NCBI GenBank assembly: GCA_025055115.1
Contig: JANWYJ010000088.1
Span: 1-64,000, forward strand
DNA: 64,000 nt
Source: Gemmata sp.
GTDB lineage: Bacteria > Planctomycetota > Planctomycetia > Gemmatales > Gemmataceae
Reading direction: 5' to 3'
Shown here: piece by piece, positions 39,772 through 52,499 of the stretch
Numbering within the stretch: position 1 is the stretch's first letter
How the letters are laid out: every line of letters begins with the position of its first letter
Made by a program: the position numbers and the translations under genes
Notes under the pieces: generated by a model
The model's input: only the letters and a program-made list of their open reading frames with translations
What the model was told of the DNA's origin: nothing
The model's database searches: none

Positions 39772-41250
39772 CTACGGCGCGGGGAACTTGTTGGGATCGG
39801 TCACGATCGGGTCGAGGGGGTCACCGTTGAGGGCCTTCAGATACAGCACCAGGTCGGCCTTCTCCTGAGCGGTGAGGTTGAGCTTCAAGGGGATGATGGG
39901 CCGTTTGGCCGGGCCATACGTCTTCACGTTGGGATCGACGGGTTGGCCTTGGGCACGGGCGCGGATGTAGGCCGCCTCGGCTTCGGTATCTCGCATCTTT
40001 TCGCTCAGCCACGGATTGACGTTGCCGCCACGATCATAAAACTCCACGACGGCTTCCAGGGTTTTCTCTTCACCACTGTGAAGGTAGGGGGCCGTCCAGA
40101 GCAGGCCGCGGGTGCCGGGGGTTTTGAAGGCCCCGATCATGCTTGGGTCTTTGTGTCCAGGCGGCAGGGCGGCGAAACGACCAAATTCGCTGGGGGGTAG
40201 TTCACCGTCTTTGGCCCCCACCCCTAGATTGTGGAACGAATGGTCAGTAAATGTATCACCGGTGTGACAATTCGAGCAGCGGGCTTTGCCGAAGAACAGT
40301 TCGCGGCCGGCCAGAATCCGTTTGGCGTATTCGTCGATTTTCCCGGCGTCTTTCTCAGCATCGAGGCCGAGGTCTTTCAGTACACTGCTTTTGGCCGCGA
40401 ATTCGGCCTTTAAGGCCTTGGCGTAATCTTCGGCTTTCAGTACAAATTTGCCGCTCTCTTCTTCGATGACTCGTTGCCGCATCAGAGCGTTGGCTTTGTC
40501 GTCGAGGCTGTTGCCCAGAAGGATCGTGCGTTCGTAGGTGGCGATGGCTTTGGCTGCGGCATCGCGGGTTGGGGCATGGCCGAAGACCCGATAGAACGCC
40601 TGCACGTAGCTAGGGTTGGCGCGGATGCGGGCAATCGCTTCTTCCCAGGGGTCTCCTTTGCCGGCGAACATTTCTTTGTCGTTGCCGACGGGGCCTTGGG
40701 CCTGTTCTTCTAACGAGGCGGCGCGGCCATCCCAGAATTGGAAGCGGTTGTAGGCCGCGTTGAAGATCGTTGGCGAGTTGATTGGCCCAATGGCGCTGTT
40801 GATACCGGTCGATGTTCTCTTGCCATCTGAGAAGCCGCGATTGGGGGAATGGCAACTGGCACAGGATACGGTATTGTCGGTCGACAGAATGTTGTCGTAG
40901 TACAGTCGTTTGCCCAGCACCCATTTCTCAACGGTCATCGGGTTTTCGGGGGGCACTGGGGGAGCTTGGGTCAGGCCTAATGGGACTTTGATTTTCACGA
41001 CTTTCTGGGTGATTTTTTGGCCAGTGGTCGGGTCGATGGTTTCTTGCGTGCCTTCGTTCCAGTAGCTGTTGAGTGTCTTCCATTCGGGTTGATTCATCGT
41101 CACAAACAGGATCGGCACGCGATCCTTGAACGGTGTCATTTTGGATTCGTCGGGCAACAGGTAGTTGGCCGAATCGGGTTTAGGCTGCGCTGCGGCGAAG
41201 CCGGGTAGCAGCATGAGAGCCGCCAGGGAGAGTAAGCGTGTGTGTGTCAT
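39772..41250 (-). CDS. di-haem cytochrome c peroxidase family protein (MauG/CcpA-like)
   Basis: A 492-residue secreted protein with signal peptide (LLSLAALMLLPGFAAAQ). Two haem sites are present: CASCH near residue 133 and CSNCH near 345. The MauG-family segments GKRLYYDNILSTDNTVSCASC, FWDGRAASLEEQAQGP and LRGLLWTAPYLHSGEEKTL-like (FKTPGTRGL then PYLHSGE) are clear. An insert between the haems is rich in Lys/Ala helices. It is longer than bacterial CcpA (about 330), mostly through the N-terminal 90 residues and this insert. ATG 41250 sits after AAGGATGATT. Likely a periplasmic peroxidase or a redox enzyme. Confidence 0.87.
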   Translation of the reverse strand: MTHTRLLSLAALMLLPGFAAAQPKPDSANYLLPDESKMTPFKDRVPILFVTMNQPEWKTLNSYWNEGTQETIDPTTGQKITQKVVKIKVPLGLTQAPPVPPENPMTVEKWVLGKRLYYDNILSTDNTVSCASCHSPNRGFSDGKRTSTGINSAIGPINSPTIFNAAYNRFQFWDGRAASLEEQAQGPVGNDKEMFAGKGDPWEEAIARIRANPSYVQAFYRVFGHAPTRDAAAKAIATYERTILLGNSLDDKANALMRQRVIEEESGKFVLKAEDYAKALKAEFAAKSSVLKDLGLDAEKDAGKIDEYAKRILAGRELFFGKARCSNCHTGDTFTDHSFHNLGVGAKDGELPPSEFGRFAALPPGHKDPSMIGAFKTPGTRGLLWTAPYLHSGEEKTLEAVVEFYDRGGNVNPWLSEKMRDTEAEAAYIRARAQGQPVDPNVKTYGPAKRPIIPLKLNLTAQEKADLVLYLKALNGDPLDPIVTDPNKFPAP

Positions 41251-41399
41251 AATCATCCTTTCGACAGAGGAAGCGAGCCGGAGTTGGTCACGTGTTGGAT
41301 GATGGCCTGCTAGCTGAAATTAACCGACAACTACGGACATTGACAACCGGTGAGCCAGGCGAAAACACTACTGTATCGTTAGCCCTCTCTGCGGTAGAG

Positions 41400-41978
41400 T
41401 CAATCCGCGGAAGTATCGGAGGAGCGATCATGTGAAATTGGTTTTGCCGATGGAAGTTGACGCAGCAATTCAGTGACCGTCGGGCGATCCGTCGGGTCGG
41501 CCGAGCGGTACGCGAACAGCACGCGACGCTCGCGGGAGATCAGGAAATCGCCCCCGAGCTGGAGGAGGTCTTCGCCGCGGTAGGGTCGTTTCACCCCATA
41601 GCCCCGCAGCATTCCACGGAAGTAGCCGATCAGTACCCGCGGCCGGAAGAACGTCCACCAGCCGGTCCGCTCTAAACCCAAGGCCGTGTAGGCCGTGCGC
41701 TGTGGATCACAGACCAGTGGAACGTGCCATTCCACGCGTGCCAGATACTGGGCCAGCACCTCGGGTGCCGCTTGCGCTACGGCCACAACGGAACAGCTCC
41801 GCGCAGCGAACAGCTCGCGGGCGGCGTCCACCTCACCGAGGTGGGCATTGCATGGAATTCACGCCAAATGACGCAAAAAGACCAACAACAGATACTCCGC
41901 CGTGCACAATGCCGACAGCCGGACGCTCGAACCATCCGGCTTCCAAAAGGTGAAATCAGGCAGTTCGTCGTGACTCAT
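41400..41978 (-). CDS. Prx-like (AhpC-TSA_2/SelU-type) protein with in-frame TGA, probable selenoprotein
   Basis: If the TGA at 41861-41859 is read as selenocysteine (U), the gene is 192 residues from ATG 41978. The part before it (LPDFTFWKPDGSSVRLSAL, then LLLVFLRHLA) is the first half of a thioredoxin fold, and the part after continues with IPCNAHLGEVDAARELFAAR and VPLVCDPQRTAYTALGL. The joined active site is U40-I-P-C43, exactly where Prx-like-2 proteins have CxxC or UxxC. The ATG lies inside the end of the preceding glycosyltransferase gene (23-bp overlap), which supports a coupled start here and not at the GTG after the TGA. A hairpin lies just behind the TGA. A nonsense mutation is the alternative. 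Confidence 0.72.
41828..41844 (-). promoter_or_regulatory. bacterial SECIS-like hairpin after the TGA codon
   Basis: On the coding strand CCACCT-CGGTG-AGGTGG forms a perfect 6-bp stem with a 5-base loop that has G in the second and third positions. The stem starts 15 bases after the TGA (41859-41861) and the loop 21 bases after. Bacterial SECIS elements, recognised by SelB, lie just behind the UGA with a short stem and a G early in the loop at about this distance. Confidence 0.6.
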
Positions 41979-43035
41979 GGCCGTCCACTGTTGGTTGGCC
42001 GCGAAGAAGTGTGCGTTGGGCCATTAACCCGCGCCGGGGCCACAGCCGCATCCGGAATTGATGCACCACTTCGCTCCAGAAACCATAGGCAAAGCCGAAG
42101 TGAATCGCCACAAACACCCCTGGGATGCGCACCGCCACTGCCGCGGGCTTCCGCCAACCCAAAATCCCCGCAGCCACCATCAAGACGCTAGCATACAGTG
42201 CCAAGCTCGCCAACCACAACCCACCCACTGTCGGCCACACCCACCCGAGGCTCGCTCCCCCCAGCACCCACAGCGCCCACAGCGGCGGAACTAGCGCCGG
42301 CACCGTCAGCGAGTGCGGATGCTTGAATGCCAGTTTCGCCCGGCCCCGGCCATAGCGGCTCAATTGATAAAACAACGCACGGAAATTCCGCCGCGGTTCG
42401 TACACGACCTTCACCTGCGGGGTGAAGTAGCAGCGGAAGCCCGCGGCATGCACCCGTTCGTTGAATTCCACGTCTTCACACGCATCAAAGGCTTGATCGA
42501 ACAGACCGATGGTGTGGAAAACCTGGCGGGTATACGCCACCGCGGTACTCTGCGGAGCGACAAACTTCGCGTCGTGAGAATAAATATCCGAATCGGGGTT
42601 ATGCCCCAAGGGGCTGCTGCGGGCCAGGCTGACGGCTTGTTGGAAGGGCGTGGCGTTGGCAATTTCGAGGGGCTGCGGACGACCGAGGCAGTCGGCCCCG
42701 CTGGTTGCAAACGCCGTCGCGACGTTCTGCAGATAATCGCGGCTGGGGATGTGGCAGTGGCCATCGACGATGACGACAACATCCTTGGTGGCATGACGAA
42801 TCGCCGTGTTTCGCCCACAAGAGGCTAACCGTCCGGGGTTGAAAACAAGCTTCAGATTCGCAAACTCGCCCTGGAGGCGGCGGACAATCGGTACGGTGTC
42901 GTCCGTGGAGGCCCCATCGGCGACAATCACCTCAAATTCATGCGGTGGAAAGTCTTGTGTCAACAGCGCACGGAGTGTCGGTTCAATCGACCGTGCTTCA
43001 TTCCGCACCGGGACAACAACCGAGATTGTCGGCAC
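41956..43035 (-). CDS. family 2 glycosyltransferase with C-terminal membrane helices
   Basis: A 359-residue enzyme from GTG 43035; the frame continues upstream but would run into the sugar transferase gene. The GT-A domain begins at once (TISVVVPVRNEARSIEPTL), with VIVADGASTDDT, a DGH in place of the usual DxD (VVIVDGHCHIPSRDYL) and FDACEDVEFNERVHAAG, the ED acceptor-site motif. Two to four helices follow from about residue 240 (VPPLWALWVLGGASLGWVW). It resembles exopolysaccharide glycosyltransferases such as SuccO/ExoA types. Second-last gene of the polysaccharide operon. Confidence 0.87.
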   Translation of the reverse strand: MPTISVVVPVRNEARSIEPTLRALLTQDFPPHEFEVIVADGASTDDTVPIVRRLQGEFANLKLVFNPGRLASCGRNTAIRHATKDVVVIVDGHCHIPSRDYLQNVATAFATSGADCLGRPQPLEIANATPFQQAVSLARSSPLGHNPDSDIYSHDAKFVAPQSTAVAYTRQVFHTIGLFDQAFDACEDVEFNERVHAAGFRCYFTPQVKVVYEPRRNFRALFYQLSRYGRGRAKLAFKHPHSLTVPALVPPLWALWVLGGASLGWVWPTVGGLWLASLALYASVLMVAAGILGWRKPAAVAVRIPGVFVAIHFGFAYGFWSEVVHQFRMRLWPRRGLMAQRTLLRGQPTVDGHESRRTA

Positions 43036-43094
43036 TTCACCATCCCCCCAACAATTGCCCCAACCCCGCCCACGGCCGCCACACTTCGGGCCTT

Positions 43095-43838
43095 TCACTC
43101 CGTGGGTATCCGCGGCGCCCGGTAGTAGAGTCGCTTGAGGCCGAGCATTTTCAGCCCGGTGGCCAGAAGAATGAACAATTCCAGCCGCCACGAGCGATGG
43201 CGGATGTAGAAGAGATCGTACACGAGTTTATTGCGCACGCTGCGAAGGCACGAATCCGGCGGCAGATGAATTTGGGCAAACCCGGTGATACCAGGGGTGA
43301 CCGCGTGACGGCGATCGTAACCGACCACTTGTTCACGGAGCTGCTGAACAATTTCCGGCCGCTCGGGGCGTGGTCCGACAAGGCTCATTTCGCCTTTGAG
43401 GACGTTGAATAACTGGGGCAGTTCATCCAGATGCAGTTTCCGTAGGACACGCCCGAGGGGGGTGATGCGGCGGTCGCCCGGTCGGGACCACGTTGGCCCG
43501 GTGTCTTTCTCACAATCGTGATACATTGTGCGGATTTTGTACAGTGTGAAGACACGACCGCCGCGGCCAACGCGGGTTTGCGTGTAGATGGCCGGCCCCC
43601 GTGAGGTGAGCCGCACCAGCACCATCGCCCCCAACAGAATCGGAATAGCCGGTATGAGCAGCAACACGGCCATGACCTTATCCAAGGCCGCCTTGGCCTG
43701 TTCGTTGAAGGGGTAAGGCGGGAGGGCCGGCGAGTCGCCCCAGGGGGGCTGTCTTCGCAGCGCCGGTTGTGCGGGCGTTCGCAACGCAGACCTCGGGCTG
43801 AACCGGACAGGCGACAAACGACTGGCTCGTTGGACCAT
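43095..43838 (-). CDS. undecaprenyl-phosphate sugar phosphotransferase (initiating glycosyltransferase)
   Basis: A 247-residue monotopic enzyme of the WcaJ/PglC family. One membrane segment lies near residues 54-77 (VMAVLLLIPAIPILLGAMVL). The catalytic core has VFTLYKIRTMYHD, LRKLHLDELPQLFNVLKGEMSLVGPRP and the closing AVTPGITGFAQI. It lacks the four N-terminal helices of WcaJ, so it is the short type. It moves a sugar-1-phosphate from a nucleotide sugar to the lipid carrier, the first step of the polymer. It starts with ATG 43838 after AGGATGAC. Confidence 0.93.
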   Translation of the reverse strand: MVQRASRLSPVRFSPRSALRTPAQPALRRQPPWGDSPALPPYPFNEQAKAALDKVMAVLLLIPAIPILLGAMVLVRLTSRGPAIYTQTRVGRGGRVFTLYKIRTMYHDCEKDTGPTWSRPGDRRITPLGRVLRKLHLDELPQLFNVLKGEMSLVGPRPERPEIVQQLREQVVGYDRRHAVTPGITGFAQIHLPPDSCLRSVRNKLVYDLFYIRHRSWRLELFILLATGLKMLGLKRLYYRAPRIPTE

Positions 43839-43915
43839 CAGTTGTCATCCTCACAGGGGCGAGCAGGGGGACTGCCGTTAAGGGCACGACCGACGTGGCA
43901 ATCGTCGGATTTTCT

Positions 43916-44569
43916 CTAGGGGCCGACGGCAGCCGCGTACTGGCTCCAGGTCGCCAGAACAAAAGCCGTGGTGATCGCATCGTCTTCGGGGGTACTCTCG
44001 GTGTCGCTGTCGGGCAGGGGGGCGATCACGTAGACTTTGTACAGTGTGGGTGCCCGCAGTTCGCCGGCCAACTGCCAGCGTGGCCGATCGGGCGCTACCC
44101 ATTGCCCATCCACCAACCACGCCCAGCGGACCCGCAGGCGATCCCGTTTCGTTTGCGTTTTCTTCTCAAAATCGGCGACATAGCAAGTCCCGCTGCGGCC
44201 ATCCGGGAGCGTGAAGTTCTCTTTGCGGACGCCACGCAGCGTCTTATATCCGCTGCTGGGATAACAGACATCGGGAGTGTGGGTGGCTACCGAACCGGGA
44301 ATACCGCTGATGAGGCTAACCAGCATCGTGCGGGCATGCTTAGCGGAGTCGTAGCGGCGGCTGCTGGCGATACAGCGTTCGTGGGTGGGGAGTTCCGTTG
44401 GGACGTCGGTCGGTTTCCAGTCATCCCAGCGGATTTCGAGCTGATGGAGCTTGGCGGTTAATTCCTTGTTCGGCTCCAATAAGTTCCACCGCTGGGTGGT
44501 AGCCCCGTGAACCAAGGCTCCGGCCACCACCAGGGCCAGAACCGCAACATAAGTGGCCGAGTTCAGCAT
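43916..44569 (-). CDS. exosortase-associated EpsI family protein
   Basis: A 217-residue protein with one N-terminal signal/anchor helix (ATYVAVLALVVAGALVHG). The family mark is the HTPDVCYPSSGYKTL segment, where EpsI proteins have CYPxxGW. C-terminal strands include VRWAWLVDGQWVAPD. EpsI domains occur beside or fused to exosortases and are thought to help in export or attachment of the polymer or its proteins. ATG 44569 is chosen because the helix starts there; the frame runs 27 codons upstream into the preceding gene. Confidence 0.85.
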   Translation of the reverse strand: MLNSATYVAVLALVVAGALVHGATTQRWNLLEPNKELTAKLHQLEIRWDDWKPTDVPTELPTHERCIASSRRYDSAKHARTMLVSLISGIPGSVATHTPDVCYPSSGYKTLRGVRKENFTLPDGRSGTCYVADFEKKTQTKRDRLRVRWAWLVDGQWVAPDRPRWQLAGELRAPTLYKVYVIAPLPDSDTESTPEDDAITTAFVLATWSQYAAAVGP

Positions 44570-44643
44570 ACGACCGCTTCTCCCCGGTTTGGTACCAAGT
44601 CGGTTTCTCCCACCGCGGCTGTCTTGCCGGTGGGCACTGTCTC

Positions 44644-46917
44644 TCAACACAGAGCTTCTTGTTCGCTGGCGCCGACGTAAACCAGGCCGGTGTAAGGAAT
44701 TTCCATGGTGGCGATCCGTTCAGCAGCGTTTTTCAACAGTGGAATGGCCGTTTCGCGATAGCGGGCGCAGACCAACACCACCTCACACCGCCGGGCCACT
44801 TCCACGGATTCAGCCACGGTCAACAAGGCATGCCCGTGCAGAACGACACAATCATACGGTTCTTTGAGTTTCGCCAGAATGGTTGCGAGCCGCTCCCCCG
44901 TTGCGGCTTTGCGGGCTTCGTCGGACCATTGACCCGCTGGCAGCAAGTGCAAGCCGTTGGGCAGGAACTGAATCGCAGAGCGGAGATCGGTTTCACTGCG
45001 CAACAGTTCGCAGACCCCCGCCCCATTGGGAACGCCGGCGTAGCTGTGGAGGATCGGTGCGCGCAGGTCGAAGTCGGCCAGGAGGGTTTTGTAGCCGGCC
45101 TGGGCCAGACTACTGGCCAATCCGAAGGCCGTGAAAGCCTTGCCTTCATCACCGATGGAGCTGGTGACGGCGATGGCGGTGGCTCCGCGGCTGAGCCACG
45201 TTTGGGCGACGTAGGTCCGGAGTTTGTCGATGGCTTCGTTGGCGGCGGCCCGTTTGAGGGGGTCGCGGCCCATGGCTTCGGCTGGTTGATAGGGAATGAC
45301 ACCGACCACGGGCGATGGCAGGGCCATTTTCACATCGGCCAAGGAACTGACCCGTCGCGTGTACGTTTCGTACGCCACCACACCGAAAGCGATGATGACA
45401 AAGCCCATCACCCCCGCCACGCCAGTGCCCAGATACTGTTTCTTGACATCGCGCTGAACGGGGTGTGAAGCGCTTTGCAGCACCTTGACGCGCTGGGGCG
45501 AATTCAATTCCCAAAATTTCTGGTAATACTGTTTGACGAGTTCGCGATAGATGGCATCGGTGGTGTCCAGCGCGCTGGCCTCGGGCGTGTAGGTCATCTT
45601 GTCGTCGAGCTTGACAGCAACGACGCCGTTTTGATCGGTGGGCAGCGGTAGTTCTAGCAATTGCTTGCCGGCTTTTTCCAGTTGTTCTTTGGCGTAGTTG
45701 TACTGCTCTTGATAGCGTTGCCCGGTGCGGATGACTTCCTCGAGTTCGGCGGCGATTTTGCTAGCTTGTTCGCGGCGGCGTTGGCCGTCGTAGGTGTCGA
45801 GTTTTTCTTTCTTTTTGTCTTCCCACTTTTTGCGTTGGGCTTCGTAGGCGGCTTGCAGTTCCAAAACCGCTGGGGTGGGATTCTTCGGGTCGCCGGCGTA
45901 CAACCAGCGTTCATACTCCGCTTTGGCCCGGTTGAGGAGGATTTTCTCAACAATCACATCCTGATCTTTCTCGATCATGTCCAAAATGGCTTGCGGGACC
46001 GGGGCCTCTTGCAGAGCTTTGAGCTTCTCTTTGAGGACGGCTTCGCGGCGCTTGTAGTCGTTGAGCGTCAGTGGCAGTTGGTCGACTTGTTGTTGCAGAT
46101 TCACGATGCGGTTGATGAGAATGCGTGGATCGATGCGCACTAGCACTTCGCTGGGCAGTCGCGCTGGGGCGGGGGGAGGGGCTTGCGCCGCCGGGGGCGG
46201 ATCGTCCGTCTTGCCTGCCGGTACAACGCCTTCATTGGCCGCGGTCTTTTTGGCTGATTGGTTGAGAATCCGCTTCATTTCTGCTTGGGCTTTCTCCAAC
46301 TCGGTCAGGAAGTTCCGCTTCTCTTGAACATCGCGTTGGATCACGTTGGCCATGAAGGCTTTTTGCACGGCATCGACGATCAGCCTGGTATCCTCGGGAA
46401 TCGTTCCTTTGAAGGTGATGCGAATGACTTCTGAACCATCTTGCCAGGCTACTTGAATTTCTTCATCGAGGAACTTGAGGGGGTCTTTCTGGGCTTTGAT
46501 CGTTGGGAGGTCTTTAATGTCGCGTAAGGCGGCGTTGAGGACGAACTCGGATTTCAGCAAGGCCGCGGTCGTTTTGACATAAGTCGCAAAATCGGTGCGG
46601 GCCTGGTTGGGATTGTTGGGATTGGCCAGTGCCGTCGGCACGCTCGACACCTGCAACAGCGCGTAGGACTCGTACTTGCTGGCCAACACCTCCCACGCGA
46701 CCATCGCGCCTGCCCCACCCAGCAGGGTTCCGCAAAAGGCGATCATCAGCCAATGCAGGCGGAGGTAGGTGAAGAGGCGCAACGGCAAGCCGTCGTCGGC
46801 CGAAGGTTTCGGGCCAGGGCGAGCGGACGGGGAAATCGGCTTGGCGGTCGAGGCCGCCGGGGCCGAATGAACAGAGCCGGTCGCCGACACGGCGAAGGAA
46901 GGTCCGGTCATGGCCAT
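44644..46917 (-). CDS. Wzz-type chain-length protein fused to a degenerate tyrosine-kinase-like domain
   Basis: A 757-residue inner membrane protein. The Wzz half has helices near residues 54-74 (LMIAFCGTLLGGAGAMVAW) and about 525-545 (GVMGFVIIAFGVVAYE), with a long periplasmic coiled coil between. The cytosolic part is like BY-kinases (CapB/Wzc), but the sites are eroded: the P-loop reads SSIGDEGKAFTA, with Ala where Ser/Thr follows Lys, and the DTPP Walker B strand is CVVLHGHAL. The DFDLR (Walker A') is kept. There is no C-terminal Tyr cluster. So it probably controls chain length without kinase activity. Confidence 0.85.
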   Translation of the reverse strand: MAMTGPSFAVSATGSVHSAPAASTAKPISPSARPGPKPSADDGLPLRLFTYLRLHWLMIAFCGTLLGGAGAMVAWEVLASKYESYALLQVSSVPTALANPNNPNQARTDFATYVKTTAALLKSEFVLNAALRDIKDLPTIKAQKDPLKFLDEEIQVAWQDGSEVIRITFKGTIPEDTRLIVDAVQKAFMANVIQRDVQEKRNFLTELEKAQAEMKRILNQSAKKTAANEGVVPAGKTDDPPPAAQAPPPAPARLPSEVLVRIDPRILINRIVNLQQQVDQLPLTLNDYKRREAVLKEKLKALQEAPVPQAILDMIEKDQDVIVEKILLNRAKAEYERWLYAGDPKNPTPAVLELQAAYEAQRKKWEDKKKEKLDTYDGQRRREQASKIAAELEEVIRTGQRYQEQYNYAKEQLEKAGKQLLELPLPTDQNGVVAVKLDDKMTYTPEASALDTTDAIYRELVKQYYQKFWELNSPQRVKVLQSASHPVQRDVKKQYLGTGVAGVMGFVIIAFGVVAYETYTRRVSSLADVKMALPSPVVGVIPYQPAEAMGRDPLKRAAANEAIDKLRTYVAQTWLSRGATAIAVTSSIGDEGKAFTAFGLASSLAQAGYKTLLADFDLRAPILHSYAGVPNGAGVCELLRSETDLRSAIQFLPNGLHLLPAGQWSDEARKAATGERLATILAKLKEPYDCVVLHGHALLTVAESVEVARRCEVVLVCARYRETAIPLLKNAAERIATMEIPYTGLVYVGASEQEALC

Positions 46918-51918: not shown

Positions 51919-52499
51919 CCCCAGCCGACGTACTCGCTCGCATCGACCAGCTCTTCGCCGAACGCGGTAGCAGCGAATACCACGGGGAAGCCGTCACCCA
52001 ACTCGAACACGCCCTCCAAGCCGCCACACTCGCCGAGCAAGACGGGCAGCCGCCACAAGTCATTGCCGCGGCGCTTTTGCACGACATCGGCCATTTGCTC
52101 CACGGCTGGGGCGAAGATTACCTCGACCGCCACCTCAACGATCAGCACGAAGACCTCGGCGCACGCTTCCTGGCCCACGCTTTCGGCCCCGCCGTGACCG
52201 AGCCGATCCGCTTGCACGTCGCCGCCAAACGCTATCTGTGTACGGTCCGGCCCGGTTACTCCGCCACCCTCTCACCCGCCTCAGTCCGCAGCTTGGAACT
52301 GCAAGGCGGCCCAATGACCACCGACGAAGTGCGTACCTTCGAAGCTCACCCAGACTGTGCCATCGCCGCGACCATCCGGGAATACGACGATCGCGCCAAA
52401 GTCGTCGGTTGGGCGACGCCGCCGTATACCCACTTCCGCCGTTACTTGGAGTTCTCTCTCCGTGAACCCGGCTTGCAGCATCCAATTGGTGGTGTTTGA
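51915..52499 (+). CDS. PhnZ-like HD-domain oxygenase, phosphonate degradation
   Basis: A 194-residue HD-domain protein of the kind found in phosphonate operons. Metal ligands are His32, His56-Asp57 and His60 (LLHDIGHLLHG). Tyr22 and Glu25 (SEYHGEAVTQLEHALQ) correspond in spacing to the substrate-gating Tyr/Glu pair of PhnZ, which splits 2-amino-1-hydroxyethylphosphonate into glycine and phosphate with a mixed-valence di-iron centre. PhnY, the usual hydroxylase, is not in the window, so the exact substrate is uncertain. It overlaps phnX by 38 bp. Confidence 0.85.
   Translation: MTPADVLARIDQLFAERGSSEYHGEAVTQLEHALQAATLAEQDGQPPQVIAAALLHDIGHLLHGWGEDYLDRHLNDQHEDLGARFLAHAFGPAVTEPIRLHVAAKRYLCTVRPGYSATLSPASVRSLELQGGPMTTDEVRTFEAHPDCAIAATIREYDDRAKVVGWATPPYTHFRRYLEFSLREPGLQHPIGGV

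Follow-up and report, generated by a model that had tools for sequence, protein, structure and literature searches.

Genes and features at the locus

In the window, by which we mean the whole 64,000-nucleotide stretch of planctomycete DNA that was analyzed, lies a minus-strand gene for a peroxiredoxin (Prx)-like protein with a TGA in its active site. It sits between two genes of the same strand, and the features on which the argument turns are these:

41978-41400, minus strand: putative selenoprotein coding sequence, 192 residues, ATG start, predicted selenocysteine (Sec) at residue 40
41859..41861, minus strand: predicted Sec-UGA codon, the U of the U-I-P-C active site; a TGA/Cys column in the family
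41850..41852, minus strand: codon of Cys43, the second residue of UxxC; invariant in 38 aligned sequences, TGC or TGT in 63 of 63 loci
41828..41844, minus strand: bSECIS-like hairpin CCACCU-CGGUG-AGGUGG, with a 6-bp stem, a 5-nt loop and G at loop position 2
41956..43191, minus strand: upstream family-2 glycosyltransferase gene (Pfam Glycos_transf_2)
39772..41256, minus strand: downstream di-haem cytochrome c peroxidase / MauG-like gene (Pfam CCP_MauG)

Translation of 41978-41400 on the minus strand bore out the initial annotation, which had described a frame with one stop only: the single internal stop is the TGA of codon 40 (41861-41859), preceded by VFLRHLA and followed by IPCNAHLGEV, and with Sec at this codon the active site would read UIPC. 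The 192-residue frame terminates with an ordinary TGA at 41402-41400, and because the gene itself ends in this codon, TGA is not generally reassigned. The mechanical list of open reading frames in the window agrees with two further claims, that the ATG overlaps the glycosyltransferase frame (41956-43191) by 23 bp and that only a 143-residue fragment would be left of the gene; that fragment, 41400-41831, is its sole entry in the list. Gene callers thus lose the first 49 residues of a redox enzyme, including its active site, and its function would be missed. Despite its apparent stop the gene is almost certainly intact, and the TGA is common to most of its relatives in the family.

Protein family and active site

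The best Pfam match of the full translation is AhpC-TSA_2 (PF13911; 60.6 bits against a cut-off of 27), with PF00578 second, and the protein matches the NCBIfam family NF040769, 'SelL-related redox protein', over its full length (199.5 bits against a curated cut-off of 120). An AlphaFold model with a mean pLDDT of 93.3 has a thioredoxin-like fold in which a helix (residues 41-52) begins directly after U40, the usual place of the active site in this fold. The best Foldseek match in the PDB is human prostamide/PGF synthase, a Prx-like-2 protein with C44 and C47, followed by BCP-type peroxiredoxins and ResA. Matches to L-asparaginase in the PDB, obtained by single-sequence phmmer, were chance only; a profile search gave an alignment to peroxiredoxins instead. 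That alignment places the catalytic Cys of the peroxiredoxins on Cys43 and their Thr/Ser position on U40, which makes the protein a UxxC oxidoreductase rather than a TxxU peroxiredoxin. True peroxiredoxin selenoproteins (TxxU) belong to the same fold superfamily; however, their peroxidatic motif, PxxxTxxC/U, is absent here, where the corresponding stretch reads RHLAUIPC.

Selenocysteine machinery in the host genome and across the phylum

The host genome, that of a Gemmataceae planctomycete, is 4.93 Mb long and 98% complete. All four components to which the initial annotation had pointed are present: selA (563.9 bits), selB (401.7 bits for the frame), selD (390 bits) and tRNA-Sec (selC; 72.9 bits, called as SeC(tca) by ARAGORN), each match exceeding its curated cut-off. 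Full sets of Sec-insertion genes were reported from Gemmata obscuriglobus and Isosphaera pallida in 2016 (PMC4807772).

Across the phylum, 392 genomes were then searched for members of NF040769, and 80 of the genomes with a member were searched for selA. TGA-bearing and uninterrupted members both occur in the planctomycete genomes searched. Counting the stronger members, selA exceeds its cut-off in 37 of the 39 genomes that carry a TGA-bearing member, versus 10 of the 38 whose members are all uninterrupted (Fisher p = 2e-10, an optimistic value since the genomes are related). The two TGA-bearing exceptions, in which a full-length selA match is missing, are G308 (67% complete) and G358 (91%). 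Every internal stop listed in this search is TGA, and never TAA or TAG.

Codon 40 across the Gemmataceae

The nearest relative, from an uncultured Gemmata sp. in the public set, is 78% identical and has TGA at the same codon. The scan that yielded this single sequence reaches close relatives only, and the family was covered by a broader genome search, which examined 95 family genomes and found homologues in 61 of them, at 63 places. Codon 40 was read in 63 loci representing 62 places, two loci (L018 and L020) apparently being the same stretch, as they are identical over the part read; the 63rd place, the weakest match (in G028), is unaligned and lies outside this count. The codon is TGA at 59 of the 62 places and Cys at three (L030, L040 and L047), with no other residue or stop, so that the homologues have TGA or Cys exclusively at the residue where the initial annotation had looked for Cys or Sec. 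The Cys three positions on is invariant among the family loci read. The enzyme thus nearly always has the active-site TGA across the Gemmataceae. Five TGA-bearing family genomes are without a full-length selA match (G014, G030, G069, G082 and G086), and these are 65-88% complete.

This column bears on two ways in which the TGA might be an accident. A one-base change would turn the codon into Cys, and a TGC or TGT that was misread or misassembled would accordingly produce what is seen at this one locus. The 78%-identical relative, however, carries the same TGA, which recurs in dozens of genomes that were sequenced independently and of which several are single-contig assemblies, so sequencing error is no explanation and its probability is negligible. 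The gene could also be a pseudogene, a former Cys protein cut short by a nonsense mutation, and in favor of this is that the gene is complete apart from its one internal stop. This too is extremely unlikely, given a TGA in 59 of 62 family places that is never TAA or TAG, an intact frame, an invariant Cys at +3 and a frame that stays conserved downstream of the TGA from genus to genus.

A selenoprotein gene remains the reading that we prefer, and the rare Cys forms may be understood in its terms. On a tree of 38 sequences the Cys state requires three separate changes, and well supported branches force all three; Cys has probably taken the place of Sec on three occasions, the direction being the part that the sequences leave to interpretation. 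All three Cys-form genomes retain selA. The hairpin described below still stands behind codon 40 in two of the Cys forms, L030 and L040, and this suggests that the replacement, in genomes which keep selA, is recent. Three separate Cys forms, all with selA and two with the hairpin, offer a clean natural experiment on the retention and loss of Sec. In one other locus (L021) a second TGA was considered as a second Sec codon; it falls where the match ends, at the C-terminus (RERAR-TGA), and is most likely an ordinary stop.

A bSECIS-like hairpin behind the TGA

The initial annotation had reported a hairpin 15 bases behind the TGA. Its 6-bp stem and G-containing 5-base loop are indeed present, and the distance is 14 nt rather than 15: counted from the UGA, the stem starts after 14 nt and the apical loop after 20. 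By the published rules, a bacterial SECIS element has a stem of 4-16 bp, a loop of 3-9 nt with G within its first two positions, a distance of 16-37 nt from the UGA and a minimum free energy of -7.5 kcal/mol or lower (PMC13188914). With 6 bp, the loop CGGUG, 20 nt and -12.5 kcal/mol, the hairpin falls within all four, and its loop also fits the N1-G-[G/U]-N-N2 pattern (PMC13188914). The structure conforms to the published bSECIS model, and it shows covariation in addition.

The fold energy of the single sequence is unexceptional (z -0.36), and the case for the hairpin therefore rests on covariation. Across 48 distinct TGA-bearing sequences, 98.3% of hairpin cells are paired versus 36-54% when the partner is slid, a percentage inflated by the omission from this set of groups in which the register fails to form, which leaves the kinds of pair unaffected. 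Both sides have changed in 21 hairpin cells, a number reached in 0 of 500 shuffles, which ignore the relatedness of the sequences. The basal pair in the same set takes the forms CG (22), GC (16), UA (4), UG (3) and AU (1). Two-sided covariation is confined to this pair; the inner pairs are nearly invariant, which is partly explained by the conserved peptide H-L-G/V-E/Q-V. In an unselected set, 43 rows have an Ala codon whose third base is the 5' stem base, free to change without altering the protein, and in 36 of these rows it is still base-paired to its partner, versus 20.5 in shuffles. Cys homologues from outside the family form a mean of 2.5 of the 6 pairs in the same register (16 sequences). 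Because the same column is TGA in 59 of 62 family places and the hairpin covaries, the TGA is beyond chance.

The register is not fully formed everywhere. Within the family it is incomplete in L070-L075 and L079, all from one Gemmataceae genus, and in L082-L084, and outside the family the same goes for all seven TGA-bearing members of the phylum that were read. The loci of that genus keep the TGA and have downstream of it GCCC-AUCU-GGGC, whose loop contains no G and comes 16 nt behind the UGA. Model R1, a SECIS model whose reach is limited to elements resembling this hairpin, scores it at 57 bits; run over the whole host genome, it gave nothing comparable and no other convincing site.

Probable reading of the UGA as selenocysteine

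We put at roughly 96% the probability that this is a selenoprotein gene in which UGA would be read as Sec, giving a UxxC Prx-like-2 oxidoreductase. The sel genes, the column of TGA or Cys only, the fit to the bSECIS model and the covariation of the hairpin all support this assignment, which the initial annotation had made. Another route through the UGA, be it generic readthrough or near-cognate decoding as Trp or Cys, in which the hairpin would stimulate readthrough, is compatible with the sequence alone; it is nevertheless very unlikely, as the column is Cys wherever it is not TGA, the TGA tracks selA across the phylum and the hairpin fits the SECIS rules.

Under selenocysteine insertion, SelB with GTP and Sec-tRNA(Sec) would dock on the hairpin 14 nt downstream of the codon-40 UGA, and Sec would be inserted there instead of termination. 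The predicted product is an oxidoreductase of the Prx-like-2 (AhpC-TSA_2) type, with the thioredoxin fold and UxxC at its active site. Standing at the N-terminal end of the active-site helix, Sec40 would serve as the attacking selenolate, and Cys43 would resolve it through a selenenyl-sulfide. Peroxides or disulfides are probably what the enzyme reduces. Computation shows the machinery, the conservation of the codon and the RNA structure; the insertion of Sec, the substrate and the chemistry we infer.

Relationship to known selenoproteins

Fish SelU has a UxxC motif. The initial annotation had compared the protein with eukaryotic SelU, and this comparison holds for the fold and the motif: SelU / PRXL2A and PGF synthase (PRXL2B) share the Prx-like-2 fold with U/CxxC at the start of a helix, as here. 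It does not extend to the nearest curated family, which is the SelL-related one. Identity to human PGFS is about 18%, and unlike in eukaryotic SelU / PRXL2A the SECIS element here would be of the bacterial type and within the coding region. In bacteria, moreover, the symbol SelU usually denotes tRNA 2-selenouridine synthase.

SelL is a Prx-like protein whose Sec sits in a motif of a similar kind, and NCBI links the two families by name. The SelL motif is UxxU, which forms a diselenide. Here the motif is UIPC rather than a two-Sec one, and with Cys at the second position throughout (63 of 63 loci) there is therefore no diselenide. Among the papers searched, none uses the name 'SelL-related'.

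Prx-like selenoproteins with UxxC and UxxU have long been known (PMC2398784, PMC13188914). The bacterial Prx-like thiol:disulfide oxidoreductases of PF00578 (UxxC/UxxU) have in common with the present protein the thioredoxin fold, UxxC and a SECIS directly after the UGA; the present protein differs in scoring best against AhpC-TSA_2 in Pfam. A 2026 inventory of 119 prokaryotic selenoprotein families names neither PF13911 nor NF040769, and its PF00578 UxxC entry may cover both. NF040769, the curated family of the full-length match, itself includes TGA-bearing and uninterrupted planctomycete members. The NCBIfam family and UxxC Prx-like selenoproteins are thus known already, and the gene adds a well supported example. 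A wider proposal, which we offer tentatively and hold to be rather doubtful as a whole, is that these genes form an unlisted AhpC-TSA_2 UxxC subfamily with Sec as the default in Gemmataceae and a conserved glycosyltransferase/MauG-like gene order, possibly serving a redox pathway of the envelope or cell surface.

Neighboring genes

Homologues of both flanking genes recur beside the selenoprotein gene: the glycosyltransferase does so in about 20 loci, and the di-haem cytochrome c peroxidase / MauG-like gene in about 23. The order glycosyltransferase, selenoprotein, di-haem peroxidase (39772-43191 in the window) is kept across several Gemmataceae genera, and it is also found around two of the Cys forms, L030 and L047. 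A functional link between the selenoprotein and its flanking genes is possible, as judged from gene order.

Further upstream on the same strand, 43095-46917 holds three reading frames: one for a bacterial sugar transferase, one that matches nothing in Pfam and one for a large protein containing a CbiA-type nucleotide-binding domain. The set is consistent with an exopolysaccharide cluster. The lone tRNA gene found in the window is a tRNA-Arg (acg) at 52278-52359 on the minus strand.
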